From assembly GCF_023586525.1 (NCBI RefSeq), contig NZ_CP097763.1, forward strand, positions 186,001 through 250,000: DNA of 64,000 nucleotides. The letters run 5' to 3'. The stretch comes from Candidatus Blochmannia vicinus (GTDB lineage: Bacteria; Pseudomonadota; Gammaproteobacteria; Enterobacterales; Enterobacteriaceae). This document shows positions 49,998 through 55,088 of this stretch, piece after piece. Positions within the stretch are counted from its first letter, which is position 1. The number at the start of each line of letters is the position of its first letter. The notes beneath the pieces were generated by a model that searched no databases, had not been told where the DNA came from, and saw only the letters and a list, made by a program, of their open reading frames with translations. The position numbers were made by a program, and so were the translations under genes.

Positions 49998-51470
49998 TTA
50001 TTTTAAACGATAATTGGGGGATTCTTTTGTTATAATTACATCATGCACATGACTTTCCCGTATGCCAGAATAACTCACACGAACAAATTTAGTCTGTGTT
50101 CTTAAATCATGAATAGTCATACAACCTGTTAAACCCATACAGGATCGTAAACCTCCCATTAATTGATGCACAACAGTTTCCAACTTACCTTTATAAGGAA
50201 CACGTCCCTCTATACCTTCCGGTACCAATTTACAAGAAGCAACATCATTTCCTTGTTGTTGAAAATAACGATCAGCAGATCCTTTATTCATAGCTCCTAA
50301 AGAACCCATTCCACGGTAAGTTTTAAAAGACCTACCTTGATAAAATTCTATATCTCCTGGCGATTCTTCTGTTCCCGCCAGTAACGAACCAATCATAACA
50401 CAATGAGCACCTGCAGCTATTGCTTTGGCAATATCTCCGGAAAATCTAATACCCCCATCTGCAATAATCGGAATATCTGTATTTTTTAATGCTTCTGCTA
50501 CATCAGAAATAGCTGTAATTTGAGGAATTCCTACACCAGTAACAATACGGGTCGTACAAATAGAACCAGGTCCAACACCAACTTTCACAGCACTAACGCC
50601 AGATTCTACTAACGCTAAAGCACCATCTTTAGTAACAACATTACCTCCCACAACAGGTAAATCAGGGTATATTTTACGAATCGCTGTAATACATTTCAAA
50701 ACCCCATCTGAATGCCCATGAGAAGAATCAACTAATAACACATCTATCCCGGCATTAACTAGCCCCATAACACGTTCTATGCAATCATTTCCTGTTCCGA
50801 CAGCAGCACCAACACGCAGGCGTCCGTAATCATCTTTGCATGCATATGGTTTTCGTTCTGCTTTTTCAAAATCTTTTGCAGTGATCATACCTTTAAGATT
50901 AAATAAAGAATCAATTAATAAAATTTTTTCTACTCTTTTGTCATGCATTTTTCTTAGTACTATTTTTCGGTTTTCTTTTTCTAATACTGTAACTAAACGC
51001 TCTTTAGGGGTCATAACAGAAGAAACATAATTTGATAAATCACTTGCAAACCTAACATCCCGACCTGTGATTATTCCTACTAGTTTATTCGTATCTATTA
51101 CAACAGGATAACCAGCAAACCCATTACGAGAGGTCAATTCTTTTACTCGTAATAAAGTTGTATCAGGAGCAACACATTGTGGATTAGCCACTATTCCACT
51201 TTCATAACGTTTAACACGACGCACTTCATTAATTTGTTGCTCCAAAGACATATTTTTATGAATAAAACCTATGCCACCTTCTTGCGCTAAAGCAATAGCT
51301 AAACCCGATTCTGTTACCGTATCCATAGCCGAAGACGCAATAGGGATATGCAAAGAAATAGAATTAGTTATCAAACTATCTAGAACCGTCTCCGTAGGAA
51401 GTACTTTCGAATGAGATGGTATAATAAGCACATCGTCAAAAGTCAAAGCTTCTTTATCAAAAGAAACCAT
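49998..51470 (-). CDS. guaB: IMP dehydrogenase
   Basis: GuaB oxidises IMP to XMP, the committed step to guanine nucleotides. The catalytic cysteine is in [16 protein letters not shown] (about residue 305). Two CBS domains occupy about residues 93-205, and [27 protein letters not shown] and [13 protein letters not shown] are conserved. ATG at 51470 gives 490 residues and an N-terminus ([14 protein letters not shown]) the same length as E. coli; the frame also has a GTG one codon earlier. Its upstream region carries the 52-bp palindrome that begins the inverted triplication. Confidence 0.97.
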
Positions 51471-51556
51471 CACGTTAGTTTACACTTATTTTCAAATACA
51501 CACATCAATAGCACCCAAAATTTAGAAAACTAAAATCAATTCACTATAATCTATAG

Positions 51557-51608
51557 TAAGATAATATCACCCTCTACACTATATAGTGTAGAGGGTGATA
51601 TTATCTTA
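51557..51608. repeat. 52-bp perfect palindrome (P1), left edge of inverted triplication
   Basis: Two 26-bp halves meet between 51582 and 51583 and are exact reverse complements without a spacer. The same centre recurs at 53064/53065, where the symmetry continues for hundreds of bases. The left flank of P1 (51550-51556) does not match the inverted right flank, so P1 itself is the original palindrome at which the duplicated unit begins. It lies 87 bp before guaB. Confidence 0.95.
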
Positions 51609-52323
51609 TCTTACGCCCTAGCAGGGTTAGATTTTATCATGAATTATGTAATTAATCAAGTTTAAATATATAAGTTTTTTTAAAAGTTAATGGTTATAAA
51701 TTTTGTTGAAATTATGTATATATTGTTATGTAGTATTGTTGCAGTGGATGCTTTTGTATAGAATATTTATGTGTAAATCTTTGTTGGTTAATGGTAAAAA
51801 ATAGGTTGTATGTTGTGTTTAGTGGTTTTTAAATTTGATTTGGCGTTGGTTTATGTTGTATTTAAAGGTTTGTATATAATTAAATATTAAGATGTGATAT
51901 TATTAAAGTAGTGTTGTTTCGAATGTGTATGTTATTGATGATTTTTATTGTTTTTATTATGGGTATATTGATCATCAGTATATTGATTATGGTGTTGTTA
52001 AGGTAAGGTAGTGTTATTTGAGTGATACAAAATGAGTAATATTGTAGTTGTGAATAATAAACAACATCACTTGGTTAAAATTGAATCTTCTGTGGATGTA
52101 TTGTTGGTTGGTGCTGGTATTATGAGCACTACTTTTGCTATGTTTTTGACAATTCTTGAGCCAACTTGGAAAATTCATATATATGAACGTCTTGATGAGC
52201 CGGCACGAGAAAGTTCTAATGTATGGAACAATGCTGGGACTGGACATGCGGCATTTTGCGAACTTAATTATACTCAATATAATTATAAAGATTGTTCTGT
52301 TGACATTTCAAAAGCTTCATTAA
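51583..52323 (+). repeat. Inverted triplication, copy A (forward, 741 bp)
   Basis: This unit runs from the centre of the palindrome to the centre of the 14-bp stem in mqo. It holds about 450 bp upstream of mqo plus the first 290 bp of the coding sequence. I compared it with copy C at offset +1482 and saw no mismatch up to the stem loop. Its plus strand is very G-rich and C-poor: in 51661-51960 I counted 59 G and 5 C. Confidence 0.95.
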
Positions 52324-52364
52324 CAGCAACAGCTTTTGAAATGTCAACAGAACAATCTTTATAA
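52032..52364 (+). pseudogene. Truncated mqo copy A
   Basis: This open frame of 110 codons is identical to Mqo through residue 95 (…DISKA), including the FAD-binding GAGIMS loop, then continues across the inversion point with an unrelated tail to a stop. It has the same upstream DNA as the real mqo, so it may still be transcribed and translated, but it lacks most of the FAD and substrate domains and cannot be an active enzyme. Confidence 0.9.
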
Positions 52365-52615
52365 TTATATTGAGTATAATTAAGTTCGCAAAATGCCGCA
52401 TGTCCAGTCCCAGCATTGTTCCATACATTAGAACTTTCTCGTGCCGGCTCATCAAGACGTTCATATATATGAATTTTCCAAGTTGGCTCAAGAATTGTCA
52501 AAAACATAGCAAAAGTAGTGCTCATAATACCAGCACCAACCAACAATACATCCACAGAAGATTCAATTTTAACCAAGTGATGTTGTTTATTATTCACAAC
52601 TACAATATTACTCAT
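52283..52615 (-). pseudogene. Truncated mqo copy B (inverted)
   Basis: The mirror-image copy on the minus strand: 110 codons, identical to Mqo through about residue 105 (…AFEMS), one stem further than copy A because here the 16-nt loop has its original orientation relative to the gene. It converges on copy A, and their 3' ends overlap by 82 bp. Not expected to be functional as an oxidoreductase. Confidence 0.9.
52302..52345. repeat. A/B junction at a 14-bp inverted repeat of mqo
   Basis: Stems 52302-52315 and 52332-52345 are reverse complements around a 16-nt loop. The intact mqo has the same stems at 53784-53797 and 53814-53827. The loop at the A/B junction is the reverse complement of the loop in intact mqo read in the same direction, which shows that the switch from copy A to copy B took place within this stem-loop. 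Confidence 0.93.
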
Positions 52616-53064
52616 TTTGTATCACTCAAATAACACTACCTTACCTTAACAACACCATAATCAATATACTGATGATCAATATACCCATAATAAAAACAAT
52701 AAAAATCATCAATAACATACACATTCGAAACAACACTACTTTAATAATATCACATCTTAATATTTAATTATATACAAACCTTTAAATACAACATAAACCA
52801 ACGCCAAATCAAATTTAAAAACCACTAAACACAACATACAACCTATTTTTTACCATTAACCAACAAAGATTTACACATAAATATTCTATACAAAAGCATC
52901 CACTGCAACAATACTACATAACAATATATACATAATTTCAACAAAATTTATAACCATTAACTTTTAAAAAAACTTATATATTTAAACTTGATTAATTACA
53001 TAATTCATGATAAAATCTAACCCTGCTAGGGCGTAAGATAAGATAATATCACCCTCTACACTAT
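52324..53064 (-). repeat. Inverted triplication, copy B (inverted, 741 bp)
   Basis: The reverse complement of copies A and C, centre to centre 741 bp. Together A-B and B-C are two perfect inverted repeats of 1482 bp each that share copy B. On the plus strand it is A/C-rich, as expected for the inverted form of a G/T-rich unit. Confidence 0.95.
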
Positions 53065-53805
53065 ATAGTGTAGAGGGTGATATTATCTTATCTTACGCCC
53101 TAGCAGGGTTAGATTTTATCATGAATTATGTAATTAATCAAGTTTAAATATATAAGTTTTTTTAAAAGTTAATGGTTATAAATTTTGTTGAAATTATGTA
53201 TATATTGTTATGTAGTATTGTTGCAGTGGATGCTTTTGTATAGAATATTTATGTGTAAATCTTTGTTGGTTAATGGTAAAAAATAGGTTGTATGTTGTGT
53301 TTAGTGGTTTTTAAATTTGATTTGGCGTTGGTTTATGTTGTATTTAAAGGTTTGTATATAATTAAATATTAAGATGTGATATTATTAAAGTAGTGTTGTT
53401 TCGAATGTGTATGTTATTGATGATTTTTATTGTTTTTATTATGGGTATATTGATCATCAGTATATTGATTATGGTGTTGTTAAGGTAAGGTAGTGTTATT
53501 TGAGTGATACAAAATGAGTAATATTGTAGTTGTGAATAATAAACAACATCACTTGGTTAAAATTGAATCTTCTGTGGATGTATTGTTGGTTGGTGCTGGT
53601 ATTATGAGCACTACTTTTGCTATGTTTTTGACAATTCTTGAGCCAACTTGGAAAATTCATATATATGAACGTCTTGATGAGCCGGCACGAGAAAGTTCTA
53701 ATGTATGGAACAATGCTGGGACTGGACATGCGGCATTTTGCGAACTTAATTATACTCAATATAATTATAAAGATTGTTCTGTTGACATTTCAAAAGCTGT
53801 TGCTG
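53065..53805 (+). repeat. Inverted triplication, copy C (forward, 741 bp, joined to intact mqo)
   Basis: The copy that continues into the complete mqo gene and so represents the original locus on the right. Together with copy A it forms a 741-bp direct repeat separated by copy B, so homologous recombination between A and C would restore a single copy. Confidence 0.95.
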
Positions 53806-55088
53806 TTAATGAAGCTTTTGAAATGTCGCGTCAGTTTTGGGCGTATTTAGTGCAAACAAAAGCTCTTAATAATCCGAGTTCTTTTATTAACAATGTGCCA
53901 CATATGAGTTTTGTTTGGGGAGAAGAGAATGTTTCCTTTTTAAAGAAACGTTTTCAAGCATTGCAAAGTAGTATTTTGTTTAGTGGTATGATGTATTCTG
54001 AAGATTTTCAGCAAATTCATAAGTGGGTTCCTCTTATTATTAATGGACGTAATGTATCTCAAAAAATAGCGGTTACTCGTATGGAGATGGGTACGGATAT
54101 TAATTTTGGAGCACTTACTCAACAGTTATTGAGTGAGTTGAAAAAAAGTTTAAATTTTAAATTATATTTACAACATGATGTATATCGTATAAAACATAGT
54201 TTTGATAAAACTTGGGATATTCATATTATTGATCGATGCCATAGTCAAAAAAAGTGTGTTCGTTCAAATTATGTATTTATAGGGGCTGGAGGGAAATCAA
54301 TTAGTCTTTTGCAAAGTTCTGGCGTTCCGGAAGTTAGGGGGTATGCTGGATTTCCGGTAGGCGGTCAGTTTTTAGTTACGAGAAATAAGAAGATAGTTGC
54401 ACAACATTTGGCGAAAGTATATGGAAAAGCACCTGTTAATGCTCCCCCAATGTCGGTACCTCATATAGATACTAGAATATTGGATGGCAATAAGATTTTA
54501 TTATTTGGTCCGTTTGCTACTTTTAGTAGTAAATTTTTAAAATATGGATCATGGTTAGATTTATTTCATTCTTTAAATAAACATAATTTAATTCCAATAT
54601 TTCAAGCTGGGATAGATAATTTTGATTTGTTGAGGTATTTAATTAGTCAATTAATTATGTCGGATATGCAACGTATTGATGCGCTTAGAGAATATTATCC
54701 TGAAGTTAACTCATCGGATTGGACTTTAGTTAAAGCAGGACAGCGTGTGCAAATTATTAAAAGGAATAATGAAGAAAGAGGTATATTACAATTTGGAACA
54801 GAGGTGATTAGTTCTAATGATGGAACTTTGTCGGCACTTCTTGGCGCATCTCCGGGAGCATCTACTGTAGTTTCAATAATATTAGAACTTTTAAGAACGA
54901 TGTTTAATAGTAAAATTAATAGTGATTCTTGGAAAAATATAATTATAGACATGATACCATCATATACCAGAAAGTTAGATGGGAATATTGCTTTGTTGAA
55001 TAAAATTAGACGGTATACTTGTAATGTTCTGGAATTAAATTATATGGAAGCAACAGATAGTAAAAATATGGGGAAGAATGGGTATTAA
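53514..55088 (+). CDS. mqo: Malate:quinone oxidoreductase
   Basis: Mqo is a membrane-associated FAD enzyme that oxidises malate to oxaloacetate and reduces quinone, linking the TCA cycle to respiration. The 524-residue protein (E. coli 548) has the FAD loop VGAGIMS (residues 26-32), [70 protein letters not shown] and ALLGASPGASTVVSI. The E. coli signal-like N-terminus is replaced by a short divergent one. A GAG lies nine bases before the ATG. In E. coli mqo is elsewhere on the chromosome, not between guaB and der. Its first 95-105 codons are repeated twice upstream. Confidence 0.96.
   Translation: MSNIVVVNNKQHHLVKIESSVDVLLVGAGIMSTTFAMFLTILEPTWKIHIYERLDEPARESSNVWNNAGTGHAAFCELNYTQYNYKDCSVDISKAVAVNEAFEMSRQFWAYLVQTKALNNPSSFINNVPHMSFVWGEENVSFLKKRFQALQSSILFSGMMYSEDFQQIHKWVPLIINGRNVSQKIAVTRMEMGTDINFGALTQQLLSELKKSLNFKLYLQHDVYRIKHSFDKTWDIHIIDRCHSQKKCVRSNYVFIGAGGKSISLLQSSGVPEVRGYAGFPVGGQFLVTRNKKIVAQHLAKVYGKAPVNAPPMSVPHIDTRILDGNKILLFGPFATFSSKFLKYGSWLDLFHSLNKHNLIPIFQAGIDNFDLLRYLISQLIMSDMQRIDALREYYPEVNSSDWTLVKAGQRVQIIKRNNEERGILQFGTEVISSNDGTLSALLGASPGASTVVSIILELLRTMFNSKINSDSWKNIIIDMIPSYTRKLDGNIALLNKIRRYTCNVLELNYMEATDSKNMGKNGY

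Follow-up and report, generated by a model that had tools for sequence, protein, structure and literature searches.

Inverted triplications of the symmetrical kind are generally regarded as transient forerunners of amplification, and in bacteria they are rarely caught intact. The tandem inversion duplications (also called embedded inverted duplications) of Salmonella and Escherichia coli are, like the structure described here, bacterial and built around an inverted middle copy, and they have been read as the outcome of two inverted template switches at homologies of 3–30 bp (PMC3161906). Small inverted triplications, attributed to faulty maturation of Okazaki fragments on loss of FEN1/Rad27 and known from yeast rad27 mutants and from cancers, share with the present locus a DUP/INV/DUP order with spacers and reverse-complementary junctions (PMC13334657). 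Origin-dependent inverted-repeat amplification (ODIRA) requires, in both of its published versions, an origin within the amplicon and recombination between an intermediate and the chromosome, and a repeat span of 40–80 bp is reported to be favoured at inverted junctions in yeast (PMC4689423, PMC10766183).

The 64,000-nucleotide stretch of a Blochmannia chromosome analysed here (the window) carries, between guaB and mqo, three tandem copies of a 741-bp unit, identical outside the A/B spacer, in forward–inverted–forward order, designated A, B and C. The features of the region are as follows, with a strand given where one applies.

49998–51473, minus strand: guaB, IMP dehydrogenase, the divergent neighbour, outside the triplication
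51557–51608: left inverted repeat, a perfect 52-bp palindrome (26 + 26, without spacer) in the guaB–mqo interval at the left edge of copy A
51583–52316, plus strand: copy A, the mqo upstream region and first part of mqo, over its identity to C
52032–52364, plus strand: truncated mqo ORF of copy A, 110 aa, entering the junction; Pfam Mqo, profile positions 2–87 of 489
52283–52615, minus strand: truncated mqo ORF of copy B, 110 aa
52302–52345: A/B junction, 15-bp arms, with the 14-nt spacer 52317–52330 inverted relative to C and to relatives
52331–53064, minus strand: copy B, the inverted copy of the unit
53039–53090: B/C junction, the second copy of the 52-bp palindrome
53065–53798, plus strand: copy C, joined to the intact mqo
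53514–55088, plus strand: intact mqo, malate:quinone oxidoreductase, 524 aa
53784–53827: right inverted repeat in mqo, GACATTTCAAAAGCT-14 nt-AGCTTTTGAAATGTC, with the spacer in ancestral orientation; also present in relatives G009 and G011

An inverted-repeat search resolves the region into mirror arms at 52302–53064 and 53065–53827 (I1; 763 nt, 100% identity, no gap), mirror arms at 51557–52316 and 52331–53090 (I2; 760 nt, 100% identity, 14-nt gap) and the palindrome at 51557–51608 (I3; 52 bp). Among the inverted repeats found in the 778,501-bp genome, scanned as stretches of up to 20 kb and the window, I1 and I2 rank first and second in length; the next has 66-bp arms, and the size of I1 and I2 is far beyond chance. 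The preliminary description had reported three matching 741-bp copies; the structure is present as described, but direct identity of A and C covers 51557–52316 (760 nt) and does not continue to 52323. The 741-bp comparison of 51583–52323 with C is unequal because the spacer at A/B (52317–52330, TCATTAACAGCAAC) and that in C (53799–53812, GTTGCTGTTAATGA) are reverse complements of each other. The spacer in C agrees in orientation with the single-copy relatives and that at A/B is reversed, a point missed in the preliminary description. Both junctions lie at short inverted repeats. The right one, formerly given as a 14-bp inverted repeat, is interrupted (15-bp arms, 14-nt spacer), and the left palindrome is uninterrupted, lacks a spacer and, as had been recognized, occurs both at the B/C junction and at the left edge, where it extends 26 bp into unique flank. 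The flanks of the triplication are unchanged: guaB to the left and mqo to the right are both intact.

Comparison of the guaB–mqo interval across the genus, which the preliminary description had proposed, finds a single copy in all 13 other genomes. Each has one match to mqo, and the gap between the two genes is 392–682 bp in these relatives versus 2041 bp here, or 559 bp after subtraction of 1482. The right repeat, with arms of 15–16 bp and a 14-nt spacer, is already present in the two closest single-copy relatives, G009 and G011 (2/13), and an 11-bp version of its outer arms occurs in three more. At the left place, palindromes lie nearby in four of the 13 relatives, with sequences that differ from the 52-bp palindrome; its prior sequence was not found among the 13, which counts against the explanation preferred below. 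The suggestion that templates were switched at two inverted repeats draws support from the right repeat of the single-copy relatives and from the inverted spacer; at the left, the palindromes of four relatives would fit, although they are other sequences.

We consider it probable that the triplication is real and recent and arose by two template switches. A nascent strand would have copied the unit rightward up to the 15-bp repeat in mqo, where its 3′ end would have annealed to the corresponding arm of the other template strand; leftward copying back through the spacer and the unit would then have produced the inverted spacer and copy B. A second switch at the left 52-bp palindrome, presumably in place beforehand, would have led to forward copying of the unit once more as copy C, which would have rejoined the original path with no sequence lost and mqo intact. 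This order of switches, and their occurrence in a single event, is what we infer from the anatomy. In support, both junctions coincide with inverted repeats; of 2,000,000 segments of 741 bp drawn at random, 177 had each end within an inverted repeat, the triplication itself being excluded from the test. The repeat spans are 44 bp (right) and 52 bp (left).

Retention of the product may be explained by the lineage itself, which appears to lack both SbcCD and RecA. SbcCD attacks long palindromes. RecA was undetected in all 14 genomes, as were SbcC and SbcD, with E. coli positive in each control set; the known removers of long palindromes therefore seem to be absent. RecB scored above its cut-off in 14/14 genomes. 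A Rep-like helicase ORF (675 aa) is still present, below the curated cut-off, and counts against the preferred explanation; loss of rep in E. coli likewise stabilizes such structures. In E. coli, small inverted triplications carried on plasmids are reported to have lasted until day 15 when sbcC or sbcD was missing (PMC13334657, section 2.6).

The purB locus suggests that palindromes in this lineage are growing: at the purB stop codon there is no inverted repeat of at least 8 bp in G006, while the arms measure 20 bp in G009 and 66 bp here. A contrast genome, G029, has a lower palindrome density and is a weak control because its G+C content differs strongly (0.586 versus 0.289). Tentatively, the loss of SbcCD and RecA might have led this Blochmannia lineage to generate inverted copies and retain them: switches between strands at short inverted repeats would keep lengthening palindromes and would occasionally complete a symmetrical inverted triplication. 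The full triplication might then, equally tentatively, be a precursor that is normally destroyed in free-living bacteria.

The most serious alternative, somewhat unlikely but far from negligible, is an assembly artefact, a caveat of the preliminary description that stands. The chromosome would hold one unit, with foldback chimeras at the 15-bp repeat (from library making or amplification) and folding of a de Bruijn graph at the 52-bp palindrome leading an assembler or curator to walk the unit three times. The source genome is probably a short-read graph assembly, and short reads cannot span the 741-bp unit; three perfectly identical copies are also what one graph node walked thrice would yield. 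Relative to a local single-copy model, the B/C junction contains zero novel k-mers at k ≤ 53, so that only the A/B junction needs supporting reads: 35 novel k-mers are needed at k = 51, all of them at A/B, and at k = 61 there are 45 at A/B and eight at B/C. In the aphid samples of the MinYS paper, contigs were built at k = 61 and gaps were filled at k = 51, at minimal abundances of 10 and 5 (PMC7671366); the settings may differ for this genome. Inter-strand chimeras would be expected to invert the spacer as well, and PCR-derived inverted junctions are described as a recognized nuisance (PMC10766183). Against an artefact, the A/B junction cannot be derived at k ≥ 17 from local single-copy sequence alone, so junction molecules must exist, and coverage-based merging would be expected to drop a rare path. 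Moreover, the genome has 140 other inverted repeats (arms of at least 13 bp, spacer of at most 30 nt), yet no other repeat of such size is found. Pure graph ambiguity without junction reads is ruled out for k ≥ 17 against the local single-copy model. Missed adapters in long reads were also considered and seem unlikely, junctions at existing repeats being unexpected under that error. We infer that the assembled chromosome mirrors the real one.

It is improbable that the triplication is a minority structure, present in some symbiont chromosomes of the sample while the rest carry one unit. On E. coli plasmids, small inverted triplications are reported to occur alongside the normal locus and to turn back into it (PMC13334657), and two such states would be inseparable in a short-read consensus; the apparent loss of SbcCD would, however, slow reversion. 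The mechanism would overlap that of two template switches, and because of this overlap with other readings the probabilities that we attach to the explanations sum to slightly more than one.

Snap-back, in which the growing 3′ end would pair with its own strand at the mqo repeat and be extended backwards, is very improbable. The 14-nt spacer would ease self-pairing, and leading-strand hairpins are expected at repeats less than 40 bp apart (PMC10766183), but snap-back would leave the A/B spacer in its original orientation and would need an extra, later flip to give the inverted spacer observed. With the A/B spacer inverted and the C spacer ancestral, a switch between strands fits and a hairpin is disfavoured.

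Least probable of all is strict ODIRA, in which two forks diverging from an origin within the unit would be closed at the repeats and give rise to an inverted extrachromosomal intermediate, which would then recombine into the chromosome. The final anatomy would be identical, the global cumulative GC-skew minimum falls at the guaB–mqo locus both in the genome described here (G000, at 239 kb) and in G009 (at 51 kb), and each unit has one DnaA-box-like TTATNCACA site; yet near-equal skew minima occur at 290 kb (G000) and 102 kb (G009), the minimum in G006 adjoins mnmG with merely a local dip at mqo, and DnaA was undetected in the triplication-bearing genome, as was RecA throughout the set. As a sign of an origin, DnaA boxes were rejected: the window has six TTATNCACA matches versus 6.14 expected, three of them falling in A, B and C because the unit carries one site. 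ODIRA, the model named in the preliminary description, is not adopted because no origin is demonstrated inside the unit and RecA is undetected.

An intact triplication with a preserved spacer is a readable record of the strand used. Endosymbionts in which SbcCD and RecA are undetected would be natural laboratories for the formation and persistence of such errors. Inverted repeats may equally mislead short-read assemblies of symbionts. Literature searches, judged largely from listings, found no account of an inverted triplication in Blochmannia, and in a named-genome contig search the genus was absent among the 80 listed of 593 confirmed loci, none of the 80 entering the analysis; another such search, which matched 10 stretches, retained no relative from them.

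The triplication would be a small case of an error type already known from DNA copying. ODIRA matches its anatomy and its junctions at short inverted repeats, and the two repeats, spanning 44 and 52 bp, are inside the range favoured in yeast; their arms, at 15 and 26 bp, exceed the 2–14 bp reported there, and ODIRA amplicons carry an origin and derive from an intermediate that recombines into the chromosome (PMC4689423, PMC10766183). Small inverted triplications, stabilized in E. coli by loss of sbcC or sbcD, have reported medians of 148/160/148 bp, with junctions of 6 bp and spacers of 30 bp, whereas the unit here is 741 bp long, its repeat arms measure 15 and 26 bp and the spacers 14 and 0 nt; their flanking duplications range from 7 bp to more than 10 kb, so that the present unit is within range and far above the median (PMC13334657). 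The closer bacterial parallel is the inverted triplication of E. coli and Salmonella. The tandem inversion duplications described in E. coli span 5.2–42.6 kb, were selected for lac amplification and are read as further amplified by unequal crossing over (PMC3161906), whereas the Blochmannia case is 741 bp, symmetrical and unamplified, in a lineage without detectable RecA.

The genome is assembled as a single contig of 778,501 bp, positions 186001-250000 of which make up the window. Repeat searching and gene calls place three copies of the unit between guaB and mqo, with A forward, B inverted and C forward:

49998-51473, minus strand, guaB (Pfam and NCBIfam)
51583-52316, plus strand, copy A
52331-53064, minus strand, copy B
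53065-53798, plus strand, copy C
53514-55088, plus strand, mqo (Pfam and NCBIfam), intact (524 aa) and continuous with copy C

The inverted arms around the B/C palindrome extend over 763 nt with a gap of 0 and those around the A/B junction over 760 nt with a gap of 14 nt, both being 100% complementary, which bears out the identical forward-inverted-forward triplicate before mqo reported in the preliminary description. The inverted repeat that it placed within mqo at A/B is also present, with arms of 15 bp rather than 14 bp. Copies A and B each terminate in a 110-aa Mqo fragment (profile positions 2-87 of 489).

Comparison of the guaB-mqo interval with the 13 other genomes of the genus sets a single mqo match in every one of them against three here. 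guaB and mqo lie 392-682 bp apart in all 13 and 2041 bp apart here, or 559 bp once the extra 1482 bp are subtracted. Arms of 15-16 bp with a 14-nt spacer occupy the place of the right repeat in two of the 13, G009 and G011, which are the closest relatives (Mqo identity 90-91%); an 11-bp outer-arm form occurs in three, and no inverted repeat of at least 10 bp (spacer of at most 30) was found there in eight. The presence of the right repeat in single-copy relatives indicates that it is older than the triplication event. Palindromes with arms of at least 12 bp lie ∼400-510 bp upstream of mqo in four of the 13, with differing sequences, and we infer that the left palindrome also predates the event. 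Switching at two short inverted repeats, as previously proposed, is thus supported by comparison at the right repeat but depends on this inference at the left.

In copy C the right repeat consists of two 15-bp arms separated by GTTGCTGTTAATGA. Identical arms occur at A/B, but there the spacer is the exact reverse complement of this sequence; single-copy G009 and G011 have the spacer oriented as in C, with a one-base change in G011. A 3' end that annealed to the far arm of the opposite template would copy the spacer in reverse, and one folding on itself would leave its orientation unchanged. Judged from the sequence, the A/B junction therefore fits inter-strand switching. The left palindrome is spacer-free and hence uninformative on this point.

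The assembly was probably produced from Illumina data via MinYS and Bandage, with a unit too long for any read. The k-mers of the triplication were counted against a local single-copy model to define what the reads must contain. No novel k-mers arise at k ≤ 16; A/B accounts for all of the 15 that appear at k = 31 and the 35 at k = 51, and novel B/C k-mers appear only above k = 53 (none at 53, eight at 61). Graph ambiguity alone therefore cannot produce A/B, but chimeric molecules at one repeat could, after which the left palindrome would close the path at no further cost. An artefact thus stays a serious alternative, although it is judged less likely than a real triplication.

Chance coincidence of both ends of the unit with inverted repeats would be rare: outside the triplication, those with arms of at least 13 bp occupy 0.8% of the genome, and a random 741-bp segment had its two ends inside them in 177 of 2,000,000 draws, unchanged under stricter cut-offs. 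At the mean rate published for genes in PMC9251289 (section 3.3), 5.474e-8 per site per year, zero differences over three copies of 734 sites bound the age at ∼25,000 years (∼11,000-94,000 over the range published there), presuming that genuine copy differences would outlast assembly.

Inverted repeats (arms of at least 13 bp, spacer of at most 30) number 144 in this genome including those of the triplication, 125 in G009 and 93 in another relative, G006, some of which will be transcription terminators, for which the counts are unsorted. One first-order Markov resampling per genome gave 2, 4 and 5, respectively. The SbcD-positive relative G029 has 14 in 400,000 bases, but twice the G+C content. 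Of 26 repeats in this genome with arms of at least 25 bp (left palindrome included, long arms of the triplication excluded), 24 could be compared with G009, which has arms of at least 18 bp at 16 and not at eight. Perfect palindromes with arms of at least 30 bp (spacer of at most 30) number 16 in this genome, two of them from the triplication, against nine in G009 and four in G006. By eye and uncounted, both arms of several palindromes appear to have altered together between relatives. In this genome (G000) a perfect 132-bp palindrome (L137:8662-8793; G000:C1:68662-68793) is centred on the purB stop codon, one half being the final 66 coding bases of the gene and the other an inverted copy of them; at this stop codon the arms measure 20 bp in G009, and G006 shows no inverted repeat of at least 8 bp. 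This series, of three genomes at one locus, suggests, without proving, recurrent inverted copying in the lineage.

Cumulative GC skew reaches a global minimum at guaB-mqo (window 51557-53827) both here (239 kb, with a near-equal minimum at 290 kb) and in G009 (51 kb, with near-equal minima at 102 kb and the contig end); in G006 the minimum adjoins mnmG, with only a local dip at mqo. Given the breadth of the plateau and the change of gene orientation there, this was not taken to mark an origin. Separately, a direct repeat of 90-bp period lies right at the contig end (G000:C1:778212-778499, in L170), which may mark the point where the circle was opened or joined.

Profile searches detected RecA, SbcD and SbcC in none of the 14 genus genomes, and RecB above cut-off in all 14. 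E. coli was positive in every control set; the SbcC model exceeded its own cut-off in only one of 14 control genomes, so its absence was judged on E-value. DnaA matched in two of the 14, above cut-off in one, and was undetected in this genome. A 675-aa Rep-like ORF is present here, its score falling short of the curated cut-off, which none of the 14 genomes reaches. This Rep/UvrD-like helicase ORF (G000:C1:304181-306097) is long and open in five of the 14 (G000, G002, G005, G009 and G011) and fragmented by stops in several others. In E. coli plasmids, small inverted triplications were still present at day 15 on loss of sbcC, sbcD or rep (PMC13334657, section 2.6).

Two inter-strand template switches at two short inverted repeats would be the simplest route to the triplication, which may have been retained owing to the apparent absence of SbcCD and RecA. 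We moderately favour this reading as a whole, that is, a real and recent inverted triplication formed and persisting in this way. The triplication is a structure of an already known kind.
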